From the IMG/VR virus record IMGVR_UViG_3300025099_000094, positions 1 through 29,182 of that record: a DNA stretch of 29,182 nucleotides; one strand, 5' to 3'. The DNA is from a virus. Shown in pieces: positions 1 through 10,131 of the stretch. The position numbers and the translations under genes were made by a program. The notes under the pieces are model-generated. The model was not told where the DNA came from. It did no database searches and saw only the letters and a program-made list of their open reading frames with translations. Each line of letters opens with the position of its first letter. Within the stretch, counting starts at the first letter, position 1.

Positions 1-29
1 ATACATATTATTATGATTAGTTTTTTCAT
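1..29 (-). CDS. Start of a gene cut by the window edge (hydrophobic N-terminus)
   Basis: The first nine codons read M-K-K-L-I-I-I-I-C. The ATG (29-27) overlaps the TGA stop (28-26) of the preceding lipoprotein gene in an ATGA arrangement, which is typical of translationally coupled phage genes. A basic start followed by a hydrophobic run suggests a membrane anchor or secretion signal. The Cys at residue 9 follows Ile and lies very early, so it is not a convincing lipobox. The rest lies outside the window. Its position just after a lipoprotein at the end of the structural operon would suit a lysis/spanin or cell-surface gene, but that is only inference. Confidence 0.45.
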
Positions 30-574
30 TCTTTTATTTTAATTGTTATATCGTGTGGCGCATATTCATTACCACCAAAATATGGGTACAAATAATACCT
101 TCTTATTAATCCCCAATTACCTTCAGGTCTTCTACGTACAAGTGTAGTATCGTTATCTATTACTATTACATAATAAAATGTTTTTATATCAATACTAGCA
201 TTATAAATTACATCTGTATCTATAGTTCTTATTGTTGCAGCGCTATGTCTACCTTCTTCATGTCTTAACCAGCAAAGCTCTAACTCACCATCTATATATC
301 TCCAACCAAGGCGTATTGAATACTTTTGATGCCTAACGCCAAAATCACTCATACCGTATATTTTGTTTACATCATGTTGGTTTTCTGCTATTTCAGTTTC
401 GTATATAGCAGATTCATCTAGCATAAACTTAAATTCTATTTTAGAATTTACCGGGTGGTTTATAAAACTACCTGAACTATGCTCACCAGCTGGTATTGTA
501 TAAACTCTAAAGCCAAGATCATCAACTTCTTTTGTACATGAAATTAATAAAAGAAGTATCAGAAGTTTTTTCAT
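26..574 (-). CDS. Short phage-encoded lipoprotein, probable beta-rich fold
   Basis: This 182-aa protein begins with a compact lipoprotein signal: MKK, a Leu/Ile core, then LLIS-C with Cys13 as the expected lipidated residue. The residues after Cys (T-K-E-V-D-D) are acid-rich, as in surface-export signals of Bacteroidota lipoproteins, and this hints at the host. The body is rich in aromatic and beta-forming residues and ends in a segment containing YPYFGGN...APHDITI. I associate that ending with jelly-roll/lectin-like secreted proteins of Bacteroidota, with low certainty. The gene starts one nt after the giant protein stops (TAA-A-ATG) and overlaps the next gene. Possible roles are superinfection exclusion, lysis or surface modification; no catalytic motif is evident. 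The lipoprotein call is firm and the function is unknown. Confidence 0.8.
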   Translation of the reverse strand: MKKLLILLLLISCTKEVDDLGFRVYTIPAGEHSSGSFINHPVNSKIEFKFMLDESAIYETEIAENQHDVNKIYGMSDFGVRHQKYSIRLGWRYIDGELELCWLRHEEGRHSAATIRTIDTDVIYNASIDIKTFYYVIVIDNDTTLVRRRPEGNWGLIRRYYLYPYFGGNEYAPHDITIKIKE

Positions 575-575
575 T

Positions 576-3500
576 TTACCGCAATATTTTTCTTTTTCTT
601 TTTTTCTTTGATTTTAAAGCTTCTATCTTTTCGTTTTTAATATTGAGATTGTACTGACTCCAACCTAAAAACATTAAAGTTCTTTCCCAAGCCGCATGCT
701 CGTTGTTAAGTGCCTGCCTTACATTTTGAGTTTTATTATATAACCTGTTAAGAGGTAAATTAGTAAAACCTTCTACATAGTTAGTTGCCGCCGACCATTG
801 TGGATTGTCAATATCAAAATTATTCATTTGAGCCATTACTTTTTTATTGTAATTTAAAGTTTTTTCAGCGTTTACAATTTTTCTAGCTTTAATGCCTAAT
901 ACAGGTGAAAAGTTTAAAGCCTCAACTAAAACAGCACTTTCATCTGGATTATAATTAACATCTCTTTGTCTAGCGTATGCAATAGCCGTGTTTTTTAAAG
1001 TAGAAAGAATTGCACCAAACATACCAGTTCCTCTTAAAACAGAGTCAATACTACCGTTTATTAACCTTTCGCGTTTCTTCAAAAACAAATTGTTAACATC
1101 TTCCTCGTCGTCATCAAACATCATTGCAAACATAGCTGTTTGTAAAGTATAGAATATTAAGTTTTGTATTGCAAGGTAATAAGTAATTCTAGCAGCGTTA
1201 GAAATATCACTTTGCATTTGTGTAGTATTAGGTTTTGTTATTCTTCTATTTTTAATATCTAAAAACGCTTTTTTAGCCAACCTGTTGAACTGCGAAGTTA
1301 CGTTCTGAAAGTTTAATATAACTTTACCAATAATAGATGCTTGTTGTTTAGAAACCATATCAGGTCTTGCAGACTGTTGCGTTGACTGTGTTATGTCTTG
1401 AAAGTCTGTAAATGCTTTTGCCTCAGCTTCTTTTTTACTTAAACCTTGGCTTAAGTAAGTATTAATTCTATTTCTATAATATGTAGCGCCACCAGTTGCG
1501 ATTGCAATATTATCACCAATTTGTGTAGGTAAAAAACCTAATTCTAGCAACTTAGATATTAAAAATCTGTGAGGATTTTTAGATTTACGCATCTCAGCAG
1601 CAAGCTCAGCGCCGTTAACATCAGTCATGATACCACCCCTTCTTTGTTTTAACATATCAGAGTTAAATATAAAACCCCAATCGTCCCAATATTGTTTTTG
1701 GTTAGCAAAAGCTTTTGCAGCCGCGTACACATTATTATCGGCAAAGTTAATATAGTTTACTATAGACATTTGTTGTAGCAAAGAAGACCTTACGTTAAAA
1801 AACATGACAGACCCAACAGATCCGTTAACCCAGTTCATAAGCCTATTAACCATACCACTTTGACCAGTAGGTTTGTTTCTACCAGTTTTAATTCTATAAA
1901 GCATGTCTTCTAAAGCCTCTCTCATGCCTTTGCCGTAACCAGCTTCTATTTTATTTAAATTTTCTGTAGAAAATATTGCGTCAGCATTTTTAATAAACTC
2001 TTGAAAAAACTGAGCTCTACCAATTCTACCCGTAGCATCGTCTAAATCCATACGTATATCACCACTATCCCAGCCATCTGTAGGGTCAACATACTTTTCT
2101 TGTTTTGATATAGTATTTATAGCTTCTGCATAGCTTTTTAAGTTTAGATCAGAATTAACTAGCTCGACTAAAGCTTTTTGATCTGTTTCACTTAATCCTG
2201 GTATATCATACCCATGTTTATCCCACAAATACACTCTTACAGCGTCTTGATACACAAAGTCACCATCAGGAGTTTTTTGATTAAGCATTTTTTTAACATT
2301 AGACATTTGCTTGTTTAAGTTTTTATAATCAGTTGCTACTGATTGCCTAGCTGTATCATACTCTCTGTTAGCTCTGTTTAAAGGTCTAATTAAAGCTTCT
2401 TCAAAAAAGTCTCTGTGTTTATTGCCCAAAACTCCTTTACCCATAAAGTTATACAATAAACCTACAAAGTCTTCGTGTGATGGCGGTATAAATAATCTAA
2501 ACTTACCTTTACCAGCGCCACGTTTTCTAGCCTTTATAAAACCAAATCTTTTTTTAGCGTCGATACCAGAAACATCTTCTAATATTTGATTAAACTTTTC
2601 GCTTAAACCTTCGCTAAAGTTTATTTTAGCTTGTACAACTTTTGATTTTATATCTAATTGCTCTAACACGTTTTTAACTGCTTTGACATTTGGCAGAGCA
2701 TCATCTACAAAGTACATGTCGTTATAACCTTCTGCAAATTTATTTAACATCCAAAGAGCTTTTGCTTCACCAGTACTATTACCTAGACCAGTTATGTTTT
2801 CTAAAGGTATATTTATACCTTCACTTTTTAAGTACTCGTGTATTGCTTGTTGGCTTTCAGGTGCTCTTGCAGTTAATATAAATACGTTTTCAGGACCAAA
2901 CTTTTTTATTTGGTTTTTCATTTTTTGCATTAATGGTCCTGGTTTTCCATCAGTAACTTTATTAAAATCTGTAAAGTCCATTTTCCAGCCTTGTTGTAAA
3001 AGTTCGTCGCCAACAAAAGGCCATTTGTCAGAAGCTATACGTTTTGTTTCGCCATCTTTTGTTGCTATAACGTAGTTTTGACTTACACCTACTGTTTCAT
3101 CAAAATCAAAAGCACTCATACCTCTTGCCTTTGTGTTTTTATTATAACCTCTTGCGTTTGTAGTTGCTTCAGAAAAAAGCTCTCTTTGTTGTATTTGAGT
3201 GTCTAAAGCTTTGTTAGCCCCTTTGTTGTTTACATTAAACATTTCTGCAAAAGTTGTTTTACCGTCTAAACCTACTATTGAGTTAGGGTCAATACCAACA
3301 CCATCTGCGTTAAAAACTATTTCGTTAAAGTATCTTTCCCACCAACTGTTATCAAGAACACTCCAATCATCTGGCATACGCTTTTGTAAACTATACCCTC
3401 TAGCTGTTCTTGCTTTAGTCAGCTTCTTGTCCATAGCTTTGTCTAAAACTATTAACTTGTAGTTTTTAATAACAAGATCATAAGCAACCTCAAAAGAATC

Positions 3501-6500
3501 AACACGTTCATCTAATATGCTATTCATTAAGTATAAATAAGCGGCTGTAGCAGGCATAGCATGTTCAAATTCTATTTTATCACCTGTTATTTTTAAAGAG
3601 TAACCAGCTATTTGAGCGCCAAGCCTTTGCCAAGATTTTTTATCGTTTGCAGTAAGTTTTAAATAACTACCTACAGCTCTAACAGTTTCGCCAGTTTCAT
3701 CTTGAGTTATAGCAGTGTTAAAACGCTCCCACATAACTCTGTGTATTAAAGCTATGTCTTTGTTCCACTTGTTTATTCTTTTTGTGTCTGCAAGTTTTGT
3801 TCTAAAAGTTTTCTTAGTACCAAATATTGTTCCGTAATTTTTAACAATATCCCAGTTTGCTTTTTGTACTACTTTGCCTTTTTCGTTTTTAATTTCAACT
3901 GGTTTACCAAACACGCTGTCATCAGTGTTTTGAGCAAGTGTTCTAACGTCGTTTCTAAACTTGTTATAAGCTTCAGCAGCTTCTTTGCTATAGTCAGGAT
4001 TTCTAGTACCGTCCTTTTTAAACTCACTCATACTAACACCGTAGTTTTTGTTACTACCAGTAAACACATCAATACCGTCTTTTATCCAAAACTCTTTTGG
4101 CATATGTGGAAATAAATGAACAGGCATTGATTCTAAAAATTGTTTTCTACCAGCGTCAGTTTTTAAATTATAAGTTTTACCTTGACCTCTAGCTTGTAGA
4201 ACATTGTCTATACCTTTTTCTTCTAGCTCAAGAGTGTTTTTTACCATTAAGCCATCAACTTCTGTAAACGCCTCACTAAAAGCAGCTTTGCCCTGTGCGG
4301 TTGTAATATTTGCTATTTCTTGCGCTTTTATTTTTTCACCTCCACGTCGAGCTAACGGAGGAAAAGCATCTAGTTTTCTTTGAGCGCCAGCCAGTGTTAC
4401 ACCTATTGACAAAGCTTTTGCATTACTTTTTAAAAATTGACCAATATCTCTATTATACACGTTTGGCTCGTTTTTAGGTGTTATACCTAAATCTTTTTTA
4501 AACTTTTCAACAGTGTCAGGCGTAGGATTTCTAAACTGTGGTTTTAATATTTTAACAGATGTTTGGGTTGATAAGCCTAAGCTTCTACCGCCTGGTGAAG
4601 TTTCAGCGTCTTTTTTAGTAGCACGATCTGCACTAGTAGCCTTTGGATCTGTATAGTCCTCGTAAAAATAATCCATTACTAAACCTTTTAGACCAATAGC
4701 CCTACCATATATTTCCCTTGATACATCTATGTTTTCACCAATTTTATTTATATCAGCTGTTTTTCTAGTAACATTTAGCAGTGGTAAAGTTTTTATAAAC
4801 TTACTAGCGTTTTCGCCAGCGTTAAAAACTCTTTGTATGCTTTGAGCTTCAGCAGGTATAGGCATACCTTCTTTGTATTTTGTAACTAAAGATAAGTTAG
4901 CGCCACCTTTCATAATTTTATCAGCAGCTATATCAAATATAATCTCACCAACTTGACCAGCGTTGTTGTCAATTACCTCTTTAAAGCTATCACCTTCTTT
5001 TACTTTTATTTTAGATTTTATATTATCAGACTTTGTAGATACAATACTAAAGTCATCAAACATATCTATTTTTTGTACAAAAGTTTCTTGTGTGTTTGAA
5101 GTGTCGTTTACGTCACCGGCAACGTCTTTTATATTTGAATCATCAAGCTTAACGCTGTCACGAATACTTAGTATTTTAGCCTCTTCGTATATAGTATCAT
5201 CTTTAGGTGCTATATTTGCAGTTACAAATGTAGAAAACTTACCTTTTCCAGGTACATATCTTTTTATAAGACCAGGTAAGTAAACAGACAAAGCAGACAC
5301 AACGTTTTTTCTAGGTATATCACCAACTCTATCATCAAATCTCATAGCAGTTAGAGCTAATAAATTATATTGAGCTAGTAATTCCGCGTAATCTTTTCTA
5401 TACTGAGGATTATCTTTAAAATTAGGAAGTTTACTAAGTTTTTTAATTTGTCTTATTAACTTCTCAGGTGTTCTTTGTGTATCTTCAGAAAACACTGCGT
5501 CACCTTCAGGTGTTGTACCAGCAACTATTAAGTTGTTTTCTCTTACGCCTTTTCTAAAACTAGCAATGTAAGCGCTTATGTCTGCAGCATTATTAAACTT
5601 AAAATACATAGGCTGTTTACCATTATGATACTTGTTAATAGCTTCATTAAGTAAAAGCTTTAGTGAAACAATAAAACTAGTGTTTTCTTTTACTAAACCA
5701 GCATCTTGAAGCTCTGCTAATATAGGCGTTAGCTCTGCTAAGTATGTTTTATCACCTTTGCTTTTGTAAACATTTAACCTGTTTAATATTCTATTGTATG
5801 CTTGCTTGTCTTCAACTTGCTCTAACAAAAGCTCTATGTCTTTAGTTAATTCTTCGTTTAAACCACGAGTTTCAATATCTTCAAATAATTTTATTCTAGC
5901 GTCGTTTAGATGCGTTAGTTCGTGAAACACAGCAAAAGCCATAGTAGATTTGTCATAGCTAGTAGGCGCGTTAATTATATTGTTTACTACATTTTGTTCA
6001 ACAACAATTATATCGTTACCAAAATAACTAGCGTTAGCCCTTCTGTCTCTAAAACCAGCCATGTATTTTTCTATTTGTTCTTGCGATGCACCTTTTTCTT
6101 TCAACAAAGCTTCTGCATCTTCAAAAGTTTCTGCTTTTAACACGCTACCTTCTAAGCCTAAAACCATTGATAAACTTTCGTAAAATTTACCAAAGAAAAA
6201 ATAATCTTCTGCTTTAATGTTTTTAGTATCTACATTAATTCTTTCTGCAAGATCATTAAATTTTTCTTTTTGATCTTTACTAGGCTTGTCTCTTAAGCTA
6301 GTTATCTCTTGATCAATATCGTCAATTTGCTGTTGTATAATTTTTACATCATTAGCAATGGTCTGGTTGTATTTTTGACCAGATTGAGCCGCTCCTATTT
6401 GTTGTGCTTTTTTTCTTAGATCACGTTTTTTTCTTTGAGCTTCAAACAGTGCGAATATATCTTGGTTGTCCATGTTAGAAACATCAGCAAAAACAGCAGC

Positions 6501-8801
6501 ATCTTGAACTTGAGCTTCTCTTAAAATTCTCATCAGCTCACTTTCTAAATAAACTTCTAAATCTGTTTTTTCAATATTAGGACCTTTGTACAAAGTTTGT
6601 AGTTGAGCAGATATTTCTGCAAACTCTTTAGTTCTTTTTTGATTTGCATTTATCTCTTGTCTTGTAGATATATCACTTCTAACTGAGTTTACTACGTTAC
6701 CAGCAACAGAAGGTCCTTGAATAGCCATTGTAGAAAACAGAACGTTCATATTAAAGTCAGCATCAATGCCTTCAATTAAAGATTTGTTTTCGCCTAACAC
6801 GCCGTAGTCAACTAAGTTATGCCCTACTTGAGTAAAAGCCTCTTCAATATATTCTATACCTGTGTTGTAACCAAATCCACCAGCGCCTTTTAAAGCGTTA
6901 CCTATAGTAACACCAGCCACATCACTTTTACTTAACAAAGCTAGTTTTTGCACGTAACTCATTGTACCAAATTTCTCTGCATAAGCAGCAATACCACCGT
7001 ACATAATAGAACTAAAAGCTTTTTGAAGCTCTGTATAGTTTAATTGATTTTGAGCAAGTTCTATTTGTTTTAAAATAGATATTCTTTCGTCTACAGTAGT
7101 TGCTTTTGTTAACTCACTATTGTAAAAGTTTATATTTTCTTGTGCGTTTTTTTGGCTTATTTCCATTTCAGAAAGCTTAGAACCACCTTCTAATCCAAAA
7201 AATAATCTAGTAAGATACTTTGTTGCTGGGGCCACAACAGCTTTACCACCAAGCTTTATAACACCACCGTATGTAAGCGCAGATCCAATGCTAAATATAT
7301 TATTTGCAAACAACTGGTTTGCTGCATCGCCAAAATTAGCGCCTGGCCCAGAGAATTTTACATCTTCCCATTTTATATTTAAAGGTCTTGCAGCCTCTGT
7401 GTGTTTGTTTAAGCTTTCTTGATAATCTATAACATCGTTATGTATGTTTCCAAAAAGCTCTATATCTAAATCTTCTTTAAGCCCAGCAAAATTTGTACCG
7501 TAGTTAAATAAAAACTCAGGTATTTCTTCTAAATAATCACCAGCTTTAATAGCTAAACCAGCCATATCAACCAAACCTTTTTCTATAGATAACAAAGCAC
7601 CACCACTAAAAGTATAATCAAGTGCAAATGCTTGTGCTAAAAATTGAGAGTCATCTAGCTTGGAAGTTGTTTCTAAAAAGTTTTGCGAAGTTAAATCTAT
7701 TGACTCTGCAACTAGCCTTTGATTTGAAAGAGCAGTTCTATACTCAGTCATTATGTTTTCATAAGAACCATAAAGCTCTAAAGCTTTAGACTTGTCCTCA
7801 GCAGAAGAATTTGCATTTATATTTAAATCTGTTATTTGATTAACTAAATTTTCTACATCAGGCACGTATTGCTCAACAACAGTTTTATTAAACTCGTCAC
7901 TTGTTGTTTTATAATTGTTTCTAAGCGTGATTATTTCATCTCTTTTAAAACTTAGATAATTTTGCAAAACAGTGTTTGACTTTCCTTGTCCTTTGTATAT
8001 TTGAGTTTTAAGCTCAAACTTTTCTTTATCTTCTGTAGACCTACCATACATAGGTGTGCCTCTTTTTTTCATAGGCTCACTAGGGTCTGCAAAATCACTA
8101 GGGTATAGTATTTTTCTATCTTCAGTTAAAGCGTTTTTATATTCATCTATCCACAAAACACCTGTTTTAGGGTTTACTGCGGCAGGATCAATGTCATCAT
8201 ATACGCCTTCATCAAGATCTGCAGCAGCTACTTTTCTTATTTCATTATTATCAATTCCTGCAATATATAATTGTACTTTTTTCTTTTGTTCTTGTTTTAT
8301 AGCGTCTTGAAGCATAGAGTTGCTTACCAAGTTTAAATCAAAATTACCTGTTTCTTGGTAGTTCTTATAGCTTTCGTATTTAGGTATATCAGGACCAATG
8401 TAAGACTGTGAAGTAAAGGGTGTTTGAGTTACTTCAGAAAAATAGTTTTTAATGTCAGTATCTAGACTGTTTTCATACTTGTCTTTGTCTTTTCTAAAAT
8501 CAAACAAAGGAGTACCAGCCATTTTTTGACTACTCTTTTTTCTTTTCATGCCTGACAAGTCAAAATATTTATCTGCTAAATTTTTACTTACTTCAGAACT
8601 GTTTTTATTTATACTATTTTTAATTGTATAAGCGCTAGCAGTTGCCTCTTCAGGTGTTTTTGGTTTGTATATAATTTTTGGTTCTACTTTTTTTATTCCA
8701 AACTCTTCAATATATTTAGGTACACTCAAATTAGATTTTTGAGCAGCCTCAATTACTTTTTGTTCTTCATAAATATCGTTTCCAAACTTATACTGCGGCA
8801 T
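576..8801 (-). CDS. Giant polyvalent virion/ejection protein with HExxH, HAD and membrane segments
   Basis: This 2741-aa protein, counted from ATG 8801, is the last member of the internal-virion-protein block, the place T7 gp16 occupies. I chose this start because it follows the upstream stop by one nt and begins MPQYKFGNDIYEEQ, a typical opening. An in-frame ATG at 8852 would add 17 atypical residues inside the previous gene. Visible parts, in order: a Lys-rich N-terminal region; Gly/Ala amphipathic segments near 400, 500-530 and 610-645; a coiled coil around 820-870; a zinc-peptidase-like HELTH at 960-964; a sigma-factor-like stretch near 1150-1200 (YVPGKGKFSTFV); a HAD phosphatase-like domain with D1899/D1901, T1977, K2014 and D2033/D2034; a hydrophobic helix around 2540-2561 followed by DDDEED; and a very basic C-terminus. 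It is probably packaged and ejected with DNA. I did not find a DxDGD polymerase motif, so a virion RNA polymerase is not supported. Confidence 0.85.
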   Translation of the reverse strand: MPQYKFGNDIYEEQKVIEAAQKSNLSVPKYIEEFGIKKVEPKIIYKPKTPEEATASAYTIKNSINKNSSEVSKNLADKYFDLSGMKRKKSSQKMAGTPLFDFRKDKDKYENSLDTDIKNYFSEVTQTPFTSQSYIGPDIPKYESYKNYQETGNFDLNLVSNSMLQDAIKQEQKKKVQLYIAGIDNNEIRKVAAADLDEGVYDDIDPAAVNPKTGVLWIDEYKNALTEDRKILYPSDFADPSEPMKKRGTPMYGRSTEDKEKFELKTQIYKGQGKSNTVLQNYLSFKRDEIITLRNNYKTTSDEFNKTVVEQYVPDVENLVNQITDLNINANSSAEDKSKALELYGSYENIMTEYRTALSNQRLVAESIDLTSQNFLETTSKLDDSQFLAQAFALDYTFSGGALLSIEKGLVDMAGLAIKAGDYLEEIPEFLFNYGTNFAGLKEDLDIELFGNIHNDVIDYQESLNKHTEAARPLNIKWEDVKFSGPGANFGDAANQLFANNIFSIGSALTYGGVIKLGGKAVVAPATKYLTRLFFGLEGGSKLSEMEISQKNAQENINFYNSELTKATTVDERISILKQIELAQNQLNYTELQKAFSSIMYGGIAAYAEKFGTMSYVQKLALLSKSDVAGVTIGNALKGAGGFGYNTGIEYIEEAFTQVGHNLVDYGVLGENKSLIEGIDADFNMNVLFSTMAIQGPSVAGNVVNSVRSDISTRQEINANQKRTKEFAEISAQLQTLYKGPNIEKTDLEVYLESELMRILREAQVQDAAVFADVSNMDNQDIFALFEAQRKKRDLRKKAQQIGAAQSGQKYNQTIANDVKIIQQQIDDIDQEITSLRDKPSKDQKEKFNDLAERINVDTKNIKAEDYFFFGKFYESLSMVLGLEGSVLKAETFEDAEALLKEKGASQEQIEKYMAGFRDRRANASYFGNDIIVVEQNVVNNIINAPTSYDKSTMAFAVFHELTHLNDARIKLFEDIETRGLNEELTKDIELLLEQVEDKQAYNRILNRLNVYKSKGDKTYLAELTPILAELQDAGLVKENTSFIVSLKLLLNEAINKYHNGKQPMYFKFNNAADISAYIASFRKGVRENNLIVAGTTPEGDAVFSEDTQRTPEKLIRQIKKLSKLPNFKDNPQYRKDYAELLAQYNLLALTAMRFDDRVGDIPRKNVVSALSVYLPGLIKRYVPGKGKFSTFVTANIAPKDDTIYEEAKILSIRDSVKLDDSNIKDVAGDVNDTSNTQETFVQKIDMFDDFSIVSTKSDNIKSKIKVKEGDSFKEVIDNNAGQVGEIIFDIAADKIMKGGANLSLVTKYKEGMPIPAEAQSIQRVFNAGENASKFIKTLPLLNVTRKTADINKIGENIDVSREIYGRAIGLKGLVMDYFYEDYTDPKATSADRATKKDAETSPGGRSLGLSTQTSVKILKPQFRNPTPDTVEKFKKDLGITPKNEPNVYNRDIGQFLKSNAKALSIGVTLAGAQRKLDAFPPLARRGGEKIKAQEIANITTAQGKAAFSEAFTEVDGLMVKNTLELEEKGIDNVLQARGQGKTYNLKTDAGRKQFLESMPVHLFPHMPKEFWIKDGIDVFTGSNKNYGVSMSEFKKDGTRNPDYSKEAAEAYNKFRNDVRTLAQNTDDSVFGKPVEIKNEKGKVVQKANWDIVKNYGTIFGTKKTFRTKLADTKRINKWNKDIALIHRVMWERFNTAITQDETGETVRAVGSYLKLTANDKKSWQRLGAQIAGYSLKITGDKIEFEHAMPATAAYLYLMNSILDERVDSFEVAYDLVIKNYKLIVLDKAMDKKLTKARTARGYSLQKRMPDDWSVLDNSWWERYFNEIVFNADGVGIDPNSIVGLDGKTTFAEMFNVNNKGANKALDTQIQQRELFSEATTNARGYNKNTKARGMSAFDFDETVGVSQNYVIATKDGETKRIASDKWPFVGDELLQQGWKMDFTDFNKVTDGKPGPLMQKMKNQIKKFGPENVFILTARAPESQQAIHEYLKSEGINIPLENITGLGNSTGEAKALWMLNKFAEGYNDMYFVDDALPNVKAVKNVLEQLDIKSKVVQAKINFSEGLSEKFNQILEDVSGIDAKKRFGFIKARKRGAGKGKFRLFIPPSHEDFVGLLYNFMGKGVLGNKHRDFFEEALIRPLNRANREYDTARQSVATDYKNLNKQMSNVKKMLNQKTPDGDFVYQDAVRVYLWDKHGYDIPGLSETDQKALVELVNSDLNLKSYAEAINTISKQEKYVDPTDGWDSGDIRMDLDDATGRIGRAQFFQEFIKNADAIFSTENLNKIEAGYGKGMREALEDMLYRIKTGRNKPTGQSGMVNRLMNWVNGSVGSVMFFNVRSSLLQQMSIVNYINFADNNVYAAAKAFANQKQYWDDWGFIFNSDMLKQRRGGIMTDVNGAELAAEMRKSKNPHRFLISKLLELGFLPTQIGDNIAIATGGATYYRNRINTYLSQGLSKKEAEAKAFTDFQDITQSTQQSARPDMVSKQQASIIGKVILNFQNVTSQFNRLAKKAFLDIKNRRITKPNTTQMQSDISNAARITYYLAIQNLIFYTLQTAMFAMMFDDDEEDVNNLFLKKRERLINGSIDSVLRGTGMFGAILSTLKNTAIAYARQRDVNYNPDESAVLVEALNFSPVLGIKARKIVNAEKTLNYNKKVMAQMNNFDIDNPQWSAATNYVEGFTNLPLNRLYNKTQNVRQALNNEHAAWERTLMFLGWSQYNLNIKNEKIEALKSKKKRKRKILR

Positions 8802-8802
8802 A

Positions 8803-10131
8803 TTATTCTTCTTTTTTCTTTTTAACTGGCAACTCGTTATTCTCAAAAGCATCTACTATTTGCTTGTTATTTCCAAGTCTATATTTTAAAGCGTCATTAC
8901 TTCCGTCTTTGTAATTATAGTTTTGTCCTTCAGCACCAGTTACAGGCTCAAATTCTCCATTAGCATCCCAAACCCATTGATTGTTTAAGAACTTAAACCT
9001 AGTACCATCTACAGTGAAAGTTGTGTAATCTTTAATACCTTCAACTATTTTAGGTATTTGTTTTGGTTTTAAATAAACAGCAGTGTTGTCTGTTCCTGTC
9101 CAATCTAGCTTTACACTACCACCTTCGCCTTCTTCACCTTCCGTGTTTAAGTGTTTATCTTCAACAATATCAAAAAGCCAGCTTTTTAAATCAGTTTCTA
9201 ATTCTGAAGCGTTGTTAAAGCTGTAAGCATCAGCAAGTAAGTTTTCTTTTATTTGTTCTAACGTAGAAGGGTCTTTATCTGGATTTAACCTTACAAGCTC
9301 TTCGTTGTTAAGTTTTAATATAAGTTTTGACTGGCTTTGCGTATAAGAACCTAAGTCACCATATGAAAAGTCATAAGCAAAACTACGTACATCATCTAAG
9401 CTATTTGCTTTTAATTTATCAATTATAGAATTAATTTCTGTTTTAACAGAGTTTTCATCAAAAGGCTCGTTGTTTTTAGCAGACTTTTCACCGTATTTTT
9501 CAACTATAGATAAAAAATTATCAGAAGACTTAACCAAGTCTTTACTTTTACCTTTATAGCCAAGTAAAATATCATCAATGTTAATATTTTTTTCTAACTC
9601 ATCGTCATAAAAATATATACCATCATTTGTGAAAGTTATACTTTCATTCAAAGTACCAGTTTGTGAGTTTGTTACAATATCAAGAAGTCTGTTGTTAGCC
9701 TCGCTACCAATACCAGCAGAAACATTAGTAAATAAATTACCATTTAAAACATCATTTTGAATTTGTTCCCACTTGATTAAACCTGCTTTATTTTTTTCTA
9801 AAACAGTTTTTATGTTGTTAATTGTTTTTACTGCGTTTTTATATTTTTTAGTAAAAGCAGGGCTTTTTGCAATGATTTGGTTAGCATTAAAATACTCTTG
9901 CTTAGCACTTGTAATAAAGTCTAAGTTATAATCACCATACTTACCTTCAAAAACTTCAGAAGGTACTGATTGAAAAGCTTTTTGCCCTTGCGCCATTATC
10001 TCATGAGCTATAGCCTTTTTAGTACTAATGTACTGACCTATAGCACCTATACCTTTCATTATACCACTATAATCAAAAGGCTTTGGCCCTAGCTGCGCTG
10101 CTGCTCTTATTAAATTTTGATCTGCTCCCAT
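8803..10131 (-). CDS. Probable internal/ejection virion protein (442 aa)
   Basis: No family is recognised from sequence. The 442-aa product is mostly helical and polar, with a Gly/Ile-rich stretch near residues 20-35 (GIMKGIGAIGQYI), many Lys/Asn residues, an acidic Gly-rich linker around residue 340 (EGEEGEGG) and a Lys/Glu tail. It lies between the Gln/Ala-rich 217-aa protein and the giant protein, matching the middle position of the T7 gp14-gp15-gp16 internal core. On position alone I infer a structural protein that is packaged inside the capsid and ejected. The stop codon is one nt before the giant gene's ATG, which suggests coupled translation. There is no catalytic motif, signal peptide or convincing membrane helix. 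Confidence 0.75.
   Translation of the reverse strand: MGADQNLIRAAAQLGPKPFDYSGIMKGIGAIGQYISTKKAIAHEIMAQGQKAFQSVPSEVFEGKYGDYNLDFITSAKQEYFNANQIIAKSPAFTKKYKNAVKTINNIKTVLEKNKAGLIKWEQIQNDVLNGNLFTNVSAGIGSEANNRLLDIVTNSQTGTLNESITFTNDGIYFYDDELEKNINIDDILLGYKGKSKDLVKSSDNFLSIVEKYGEKSAKNNEPFDENSVKTEINSIIDKLKANSLDDVRSFAYDFSYGDLGSYTQSQSKLILKLNNEELVRLNPDKDPSTLEQIKENLLADAYSFNNASELETDLKSWLFDIVEDKHLNTEGEEGEGGSVKLDWTGTDNTAVYLKPKQIPKIVEGIKDYTTFTVDGTRFKFLNNQWVWDANGEFEPVTGAEGQNYNYKDGSNDALKYRLGNNKQIVDAFENNELPVKKKKEE

Follow-up and report, generated by a model that had tools for sequence, protein, structure and literature searches.

A phage-encoded lipoprotein with a predicted polysaccharide-lyase fold and a putative Bacteroidota surface-export signal

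Introduction

Most known lipoproteins that act in superinfection exclusion are encoded by enteric phages or by phages of Gram-positive bacteria. The available excerpts of two published descriptions cover the closest examples, namely Llp of phage T5 (PMC9586334) and Ltp of phage TP-J34 (PMC3952083), both of which are phage-encoded lipoproteins of the infected cell's envelope. The lipoprotein described here resembles them in this respect. It differs from Llp, which is periplasmic and jams FhuA (PMC9586334, same excerpt), and from Ltp, which belongs to a Streptococcus phage (PMC3952083, same excerpt).

A second point of comparison is the MucG type of Capnocytophaga surface lipoprotein. According to the excerpt of PMC5080379, MucG carries the signal KKEVEEE, the optimal export signal is C-X-K-(D/E)2-X, and KKEVEE after the lipidated cysteine puts a reporter on the Capnocytophaga surface, which KKEVE does poorly. 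The phage protein has a closely similar xKEVDD after its cysteine; MucG, however, is a bacterial mucinase, and display of the phage lipoprotein is a prediction from its sequence.

The third comparison is with two solved polysaccharide lyases, the alginate lyase Aly36B of family PL36 (6KCW) and vAL-1 of family PL14 from a Chlorella virus (3GNE), with which the phage lipoprotein shares a predicted jelly-roll fold and the motif order K ... SxR ... FGG. It differs from both in being ~60 residues shorter than the solved chains, in lacking a significant sequence match to them and in having both tyrosines of the proposed site replaced. Among the papers listed on phage exclusion lipoproteins in connection with Flavobacterium or with polysaccharide lyases, and on lipoproteins of marine Bacteroidetes phages, none describes such a protein in its title or abstract opening.

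Here we present sequence comparisons and structure models that place this lipoprotein, as a phage-adapted and putatively surface-tagged form, in an unnamed lipoprotein family that occurs mainly in Bacteroidota and has a predicted polysaccharide-lyase fold.

Results

The lipoprotein gene and its setting

The window is the whole virus record that was analysed, 29,182 bases in length, and the long ORFs of its late block lie on the minus strand. The lipoprotein gene and its neighbors are placed as follows.

26–574, minus strand: 182-aa lipoprotein gene (ATG at 574–572, TGA at 28–26), supported by viral relatives and purifying selection.
536–574, minus strand: signal peptide and lipobox L-I-S-C, with Cys13 at 538–536, read from the sequence.
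1–29, minus strand: first nine codons of gene 2 (MKKLIIIIC), joined by an ATGA overlap, with the remainder beyond the record end.
576–8852, minus strand: giant ORF of 2758 aa upstream of the lipoprotein gene, its stop one base from the lipoprotein ATG.

Translation of the ORF at 574..26 (minus strand) begins with MKKLLILLLLISC, followed directly by TKEVDD, and places Cys13 at the end of the lipobox LISC; this cysteine is invariant in 34/34 aligned phage copies. A preliminary description of the locus had reported a lipoprotein with Cys13 and an ATGA-coupled second gene starting M-K-K-L-I-I-I-I. Both are confirmed, with the TGA stop of the lipoprotein overlapping the ATG of gene 2 in an ATGA at window positions 26–29. 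A scan of viral contigs found 52 loci with lipoprotein relatives at 74–98% identity, a count in which one copy appears twice, its two halves on a single contig being listed as L050 and L052; these halves flank a gap of about ten bases, and the copy may be broken. Over the mature part, dN/dS relative to the window ranged from 0.02 to 0.18 in 33/33 comparisons, which indicates purifying selection, and the 52 loci together with these low ratios rule out a chance ORF.

The window and five further contigs (L002, L005, L007, L012 and L042) end at the same base, 28 bases past the last sense codon of the lipoprotein, and other contigs run through this point. The common end may be an assembly break arising from the presence or absence of the lipoprotein beside gene 2. 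The giant ORF has no Pfam match above a family cut-off; it encodes HELTH at 5910–5924 and DFDET at 3093–3107 (minus strand), which we take to be a HExxH metallopeptidase-like motif and a HAD-like DxDxT motif, respectively.

An unnamed lipoprotein family and its predicted fold

The lipoprotein matches no family in Pfam (E up to 1) or NCBIfam, no PDB sequence aligns to it below E 0.4, and PADLOC (E up to 0.01) returned 0 families for it and for four downstream proteins of its relatives. A scan of one genome per species yielded 180 relatives, of which 80, mostly from Bacteroidota as judged by record title, were kept. L059, on a phage-like contig, is 81% identical to the window's lipoprotein; the rest, mostly from Cytophagales and Chitinophagales, are 31–41% identical (32–42% for the 58 aligned genome copies). 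They form an unnamed family, with members in Dyadobacter, Pontibacter, Rufibacter, Hymenobacter and Chitinophagaceae, that shares the domain of the phage protein and, for the most part, its lipobox layout. We found no conserved bacterial operon around these genes: the commonest neighbor that is not a paralogue occurs in 18/80 loci, and neighbors look clade-specific. Phage and genome copies share an invariant set of residues (Y58, D68, N70, K71, S86, R88, G90, W91, P164, F166–G168 and P173), which includes most of one short motif.

71–85, minus strand: P-Y-F-G-G motif, residues 164–168, with P164, F166, G167 and G168 invariant.

Of 50,697 phage records searched by tblastn, three hold distant relatives: Pseudanabaena phage Pan5, Leptolyngbya phage Lbo-JY46 and a 636-kb phage that encodes two. 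A signal peptide is missing from three of the four copies, and surface display is therefore not a rule across the whole family.

To model the structure, an alignment of 74 sequences (16 phage copies and 58 of the 80 genome loci) was used as input. The resulting model (pLDDT 90.9, pTM 0.84) is a globular beta-sandwich of the jelly-roll type with no long helix past the signal peptide. Comparison of this predicted model by VIA-align ranked PL36 Aly36B first (Z 13.8, r.m.s.d. 2.8, 162 residues aligned) and PL14 vAL-1 second (Z 12.8, r.m.s.d. 2.5, 156 aligned), followed by PL7 and PL14 enzymes; Foldseek placed PL7 alginate lyases first. The lipoprotein is thus predicted to fold as a beta-jelly-roll of the polysaccharide-lyase kind, a shared fold that alone shows no function.

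A conserved putative surface-export signal

Immediately past the lipobox cysteine lies a short acidic stretch.

518–535, minus strand: residues 14–19, TKEVDD, predicted Bacteroidota lipoprotein export signal, from conservation and comparison with the excerpt of PMC5080379.

Within the 34 aligned phage copies, K15, D18 and D19 are present in 34/34 and E16 in 31/34. Counting the cysteine as +1, all 62 viral copies that cover the signal have K at +3 and D-D at +6/+7, and the residue after the lysine is E in 56, D in three and N, S or I in one each. The viral consensus from the cysteine on is C-x-K-E-x-D-D, some copies (for example, L024) read CKKEVDD, and the signal peptide ahead of the cysteine is variable. 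Genome copies of the family differ, with C-x-K-[DE] in only 4 of the 69 that have a lipobox-like cysteine. The phage signal agrees with that of MucG, and it has just the first acidic residue of the optimal C-X-K-(D/E)2. These features bear out the earlier remark that the acidic residues past the cysteine resemble a Bacteroidota surface-export signal, and the lipoprotein is likely displayed on the surface of the infected cell, as judged from its sequence.

Replaced tyrosines at the presumed lyase site

The conserved PL36 center consists of Lys143, Arg169, Tyr185 and Tyr187 in the excerpt of PMC8286568. We compared motif order between the lipoprotein family and a PL36/PL14 profile, built from homologues fetched via Pfam PF21294, which finds 6KCW at E 2.9e-133. 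The PL36/PL14 profile reads GGK ... R-x-M-W ... PYxY ... FRGG, and the unnamed family reads NK71 ... SxR88xxW ... Y103xY105 ... FGG, which gives the following counterparts in the window.

362–364, minus strand: Lys71, invariant, proposed counterpart of the PL36 catalytic lysine, mapped by motif order and not by coordinates.
311–313, minus strand: Arg88 in S-x-R-L-x-W-R, invariant; an S-x-R-L-M-W-like motif occurs in PL36/PL14.
260–268, minus strand: Leu103-Arg104-His105, Tyr-x-Tyr in 55/58 genome copies, from alignment rows and viral loci.

Proof from sequence of kinship to PL36/PL14 was sought and failed. No Pfam family, among which PF21294 represents PL14/PL36, matches the lipoprotein at E up to 1. 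Comparison of the two profiles by hhalign gave a probability of 56% over 30 columns, a weak result that lends no support, and the HMM scores of Aly36B and AkAly30 fall within the range of 500 shuffles each. Because of these shuffle-level scores and the weak profile–profile comparison, the assignment of K71, R88 and positions 103 and 105 follows motif order, and the pseudo-lyase reading that we infer from it is conditional on that assignment.

K71 and R88 are invariant in 74/74 alignment rows (16 phage, 58 genome). Positions 103 and 105 separate the phage copies from the genome copies of the family, which have Y,Y in 55/58 and F,H in 3/58. Among the viral loci, 63 copies cover these positions and three do not, with six of the loci being second matches on contigs already counted; 59 of the 63 have L/H and four have L/R (L139, L143, L147 and L213). 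L/H also occupies 34/34 rows of a narrower alignment, which left out duplicates, truncated copies and any copy that lacks an ATG start or has an altered DLGFR motif. The distant phage copies have Tyr103 in 4/4 and Tyr105 in 3/4.

These residues bear on whether the lipoprotein is an active surface depolymerase that cuts host capsule or exopolysaccharide with K71, R88 and perhaps H105, thereby freeing progeny or removing receptors. Such an enzyme would account for the lyase fold, for the invariance of K71 and R88 and for the strong purifying selection, and a histidine at 105 is also found in the three F,H genome copies and in one distant phage copy. However, both tyrosines of the PL36-like set are replaced in 63/63 viral copies, with arginine at 105 in four, and no PL family profile matches the lipoprotein. 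An active depolymerase is therefore unlikely, although it deserves serious consideration. Since the tyrosine pair is replaced in every readable viral copy of this clade, the phage protein may bind without cleaving, and we think that binding or masking of a glycan is likelier than its cleavage.

Gene 2 and the downstream cassette

In six complete copies adjoining the lipoprotein, gene 2 encodes an exported protein of 348–362 aa. Its model (pLDDT 74.6) has 12 long strands and matches the outer-membrane barrels Tsx (Z 11.8), EstA (11.1), KdgM (11.0) and NanC (10.8), and the product of gene 2 in these relatives is accordingly predicted to be an exported 12-strand outer-membrane barrel. This agrees with the preliminary description, which had called the gene envelope-directed. 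The model singles out no specific porin family, as Tsx, autotransporter and KdgM/NanC barrels tie within ~1 Z. Among 48 aligned homologues, a lipobox-like C-x-P-K-x-C-C start is present in 28 and absent from 20, and the terminal motif Y-[DE]-[FV]-K-x-G-x-N-Y-x-x-[FRL] closes 46 of them.

The lipoprotein gene and gene 2 are not always paired. Following the lipoprotein in the 52 loci is gene 2 or its start in 16, another gene in 31 and a contig end in five. From these, 24 loci were selected for a visibly coupled start; the coupling is by ATGA in 24/24, and the coupled gene is gene 2 in 16 (only the first codons in eight) and one for another exported protein in eight. A search with gene 2 found at least 80 viral loci, where the upstream gene is an ORF of >1000 aa in 55, the lipoprotein in seven, another gene in 14 and cut off or not found in four; among the 80 loci listed, 12 hold the lipoprotein somewhere.

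A role in nutrient capture, with a host-type glycan-binding lipoprotein and the barrel as an oligosaccharide porin feeding the infected cell, would draw on the lyase fold and on the proximity of the barrel model to the KdgM/NanC acidic-sugar porins (Z ~11). We consider it improbable, given that Tsx and autotransporter barrels score the same, that the barrel pLDDT is only 74.6 and that the genes are not always together.

Relatives also carry a thermonuclease gene (PF00565) further downstream. In many of them gene 2 is followed by a ~92-aa protein that has a single hydrophobic segment and probably a coiled coil (L034:9621–9896 and L049:9928–10206); its only Rz-like match is very weak (phrog_739, E 0.18). 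An exported thioredoxin-like protein (L034:9896–10216; PF00085 over cut-off) belongs to the same cassette as an Omp28-like protein (L049:10665–11624), which scores below curated cut-offs. A T9SS type A sorting domain scores over cut-off in large exported proteins at L015:8546–10687, L049:11629–13917 and L167:5248–7560; as a rule for such proteins it was rejected, with 3/11 tested carrying it. The papers listed on phages and T9SS included none on phage-encoded T9SS cargo, by title and abstract opening. A Bacteroidota host fits the T9SS sorting domain, the lipoprotein export signal and the large terminase subunit (TerL; see below), and the host of these phages is probably a marine member of Bacteroidota.

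The cassette also bears on lysis, in which the lipoprotein and gene 2 would disrupt the outer membrane in spanin-like fashion. L049 encodes an M15 endolysin ~6.5 kb downstream and L034 has a similar ORF at ~5 kb, the ~92-aa protein with its hydrophobic segment and likely coiled coil comes one or two genes after gene 2, and the distant relative Pan5_24, from a cyanophage, sits between a membrane protein gene and a peptidoglycan endopeptidase gene, directly upstream of and overlapping the latter, a position that would also fit lysis. Set against these are the globular beta-sandwich modelled for the 182-aa lipoprotein, in which no long helix follows the signal peptide, the predicted barrel of gene 2 and the frequent separation of the pair. 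We rejected the spanin pair, one of the options raised in the preliminary description, on the same predicted models, in which gene 2 encodes a barrel and not an inner-membrane coiled-coil partner. A lysis role has a very low probability in our estimate.

Several layouts, several phage backbones

The 52 viral loci fall into several layouts, and profiles were run on one locus per type to check the gene families. A giant ORF like that of the window lies upstream of the lipoprotein in 20/52; 11/52 have a convergent operon of one kind downstream and, where complete, a different ORF of ~1460 aa upstream; gp32/UvsX-like ORFs are downstream in 4/52; and a DUF932-like ORF is downstream in 5/52. In the other 12, the lipoprotein follows a small exported thioredoxin-like gene (three), precedes another exported protein (five) or is in a different or cut setting (four). 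The profile-checked loci gave gp32 and UvsX in L022, RIIA, RIIB, an exonuclease and a resolvase in L030 and DUF932 in L038. Beside the RIIA/RIIB homologues of L030 is a spore-photoproduct-lyase-like gene (PF20903; L030:11869–12729).

Jelly-roll domains are common in tail proteins, and placement after a giant, presumably structural, ORF in 20/52 loci would suit a virion component encoded last in the structural operon, such as a decoration that is lipidated or binds glycans, but we give this reading little credence, since the signal peptide and lipobox would remove the protein from the cytoplasm, where virions assemble, other layouts put the gene at the end of a convergent operon or beside the gp32/UvsX replication genes (a position that speaks against a lysis role as well), and no PHROG virion family matches. 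The preliminary description had named a match to a known virion tail component as evidence against its reading; the best PHROG match (E 0.035) is to a family of unknown function, with none to a tail or virion family. Spanin and virion roles are both unlikely.

TerL was compared across these layouts. That of the window is 45% identical to its counterpart in Flavobacterium 'elemo' phages and 64% identical to that of an uncultured spring phage (MW202828). It occurs at 78–97% identity in 10/10 tested records with the giant-ORF, after-thioredoxin and before-exported-protein layouts and was not found in 9/10 records with other layouts, the tenth (L048) having a 25% relative. TerL is in two adjacent frames in G157 and G163 (the records of L034 and L037), perhaps owing to an intron, an insertion or a sequencing error. 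UvsX of L022 was found only in the four gp32-type records of 18. The RII-type loci have no ORF besides the lipoprotein in common with the other types compared, and the gp32-type and DUF932-type loci share a lipoprotein-adjacent gene at 51–70% and may be one lineage. The lipoprotein gene thus recurs, at 73–98% identity, in at least three phage backbones, perhaps more; because virus records are fragments, a missing TerL or UvsX is no proof of a different backbone.

A tree of 96 rows places the 34 phage copies together in a single clade (100/100), whose stem is long and whose internal branches are short. Copies next to the giant ORF require at least two changes on the starred branches of the tree. 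L034 and L035, together with L036 and L037, which have the window-type TerL, group with four RII-type copies (100/88), and gp32-type copies fall inside the 19-copy set that holds the window (99/97). At least two layout changes on the tree point to gene exchange. The gene also shifts place within the window's own phage type, where the gene ahead of it in L139, L140, L143 and L147 is not the giant ORF but a small exported one of the thioredoxin-like type. As seen in these sequences, the lipoprotein has the pattern of an accessory gene exchanged among phages.

Discussion

We tentatively favor, at a little under an even chance, an accessory surface protein that binds or trims a host glycan on the infected cell and possibly excludes superinfection. 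Under this explanation, the lipoprotein would be an accessory 'moron' protein of phages probably infecting Bacteroidota. It would be exported and lipidated at Cys13, and the K-E-V-D-D signal would then flip it to the outside of the outer membrane, where the displayed jelly-roll, of predicted polysaccharide-lyase fold, could contact an acidic glycan on the infected cell's surface. In phages like the window's, it would be co-translated with an outer-membrane barrel or a different exported protein. The likely benefit would be that the infected cell, or its debris, stops adsorbing or admitting phage, whether by superinfection exclusion or by preventing re-adsorption. The gene, its lipobox, the conservation of its export signal, its predicted fold, its family and its spread were computed, and glycan contact, loss of catalysis and exclusion are what we infer from them.

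A broader form of this explanation is less likely than not. Lineages of Bacteroidota phages may exchange a catalytically altered lectin of lyase fold, shown on the cell by the host's own lipoprotein route, which together with the barrel and secreted proteins (some with T9SS domains) would make up a module for remodelling the cell surface and thereby preventing superinfection or re-adsorption.

If the favored explanation is true, phages would be exploiting the surface-display route of Bacteroidota to modify the glycans that coat infected cells. An unnamed lipoprotein family present in many Bacteroidota genomes would also gain a role that can be tested.
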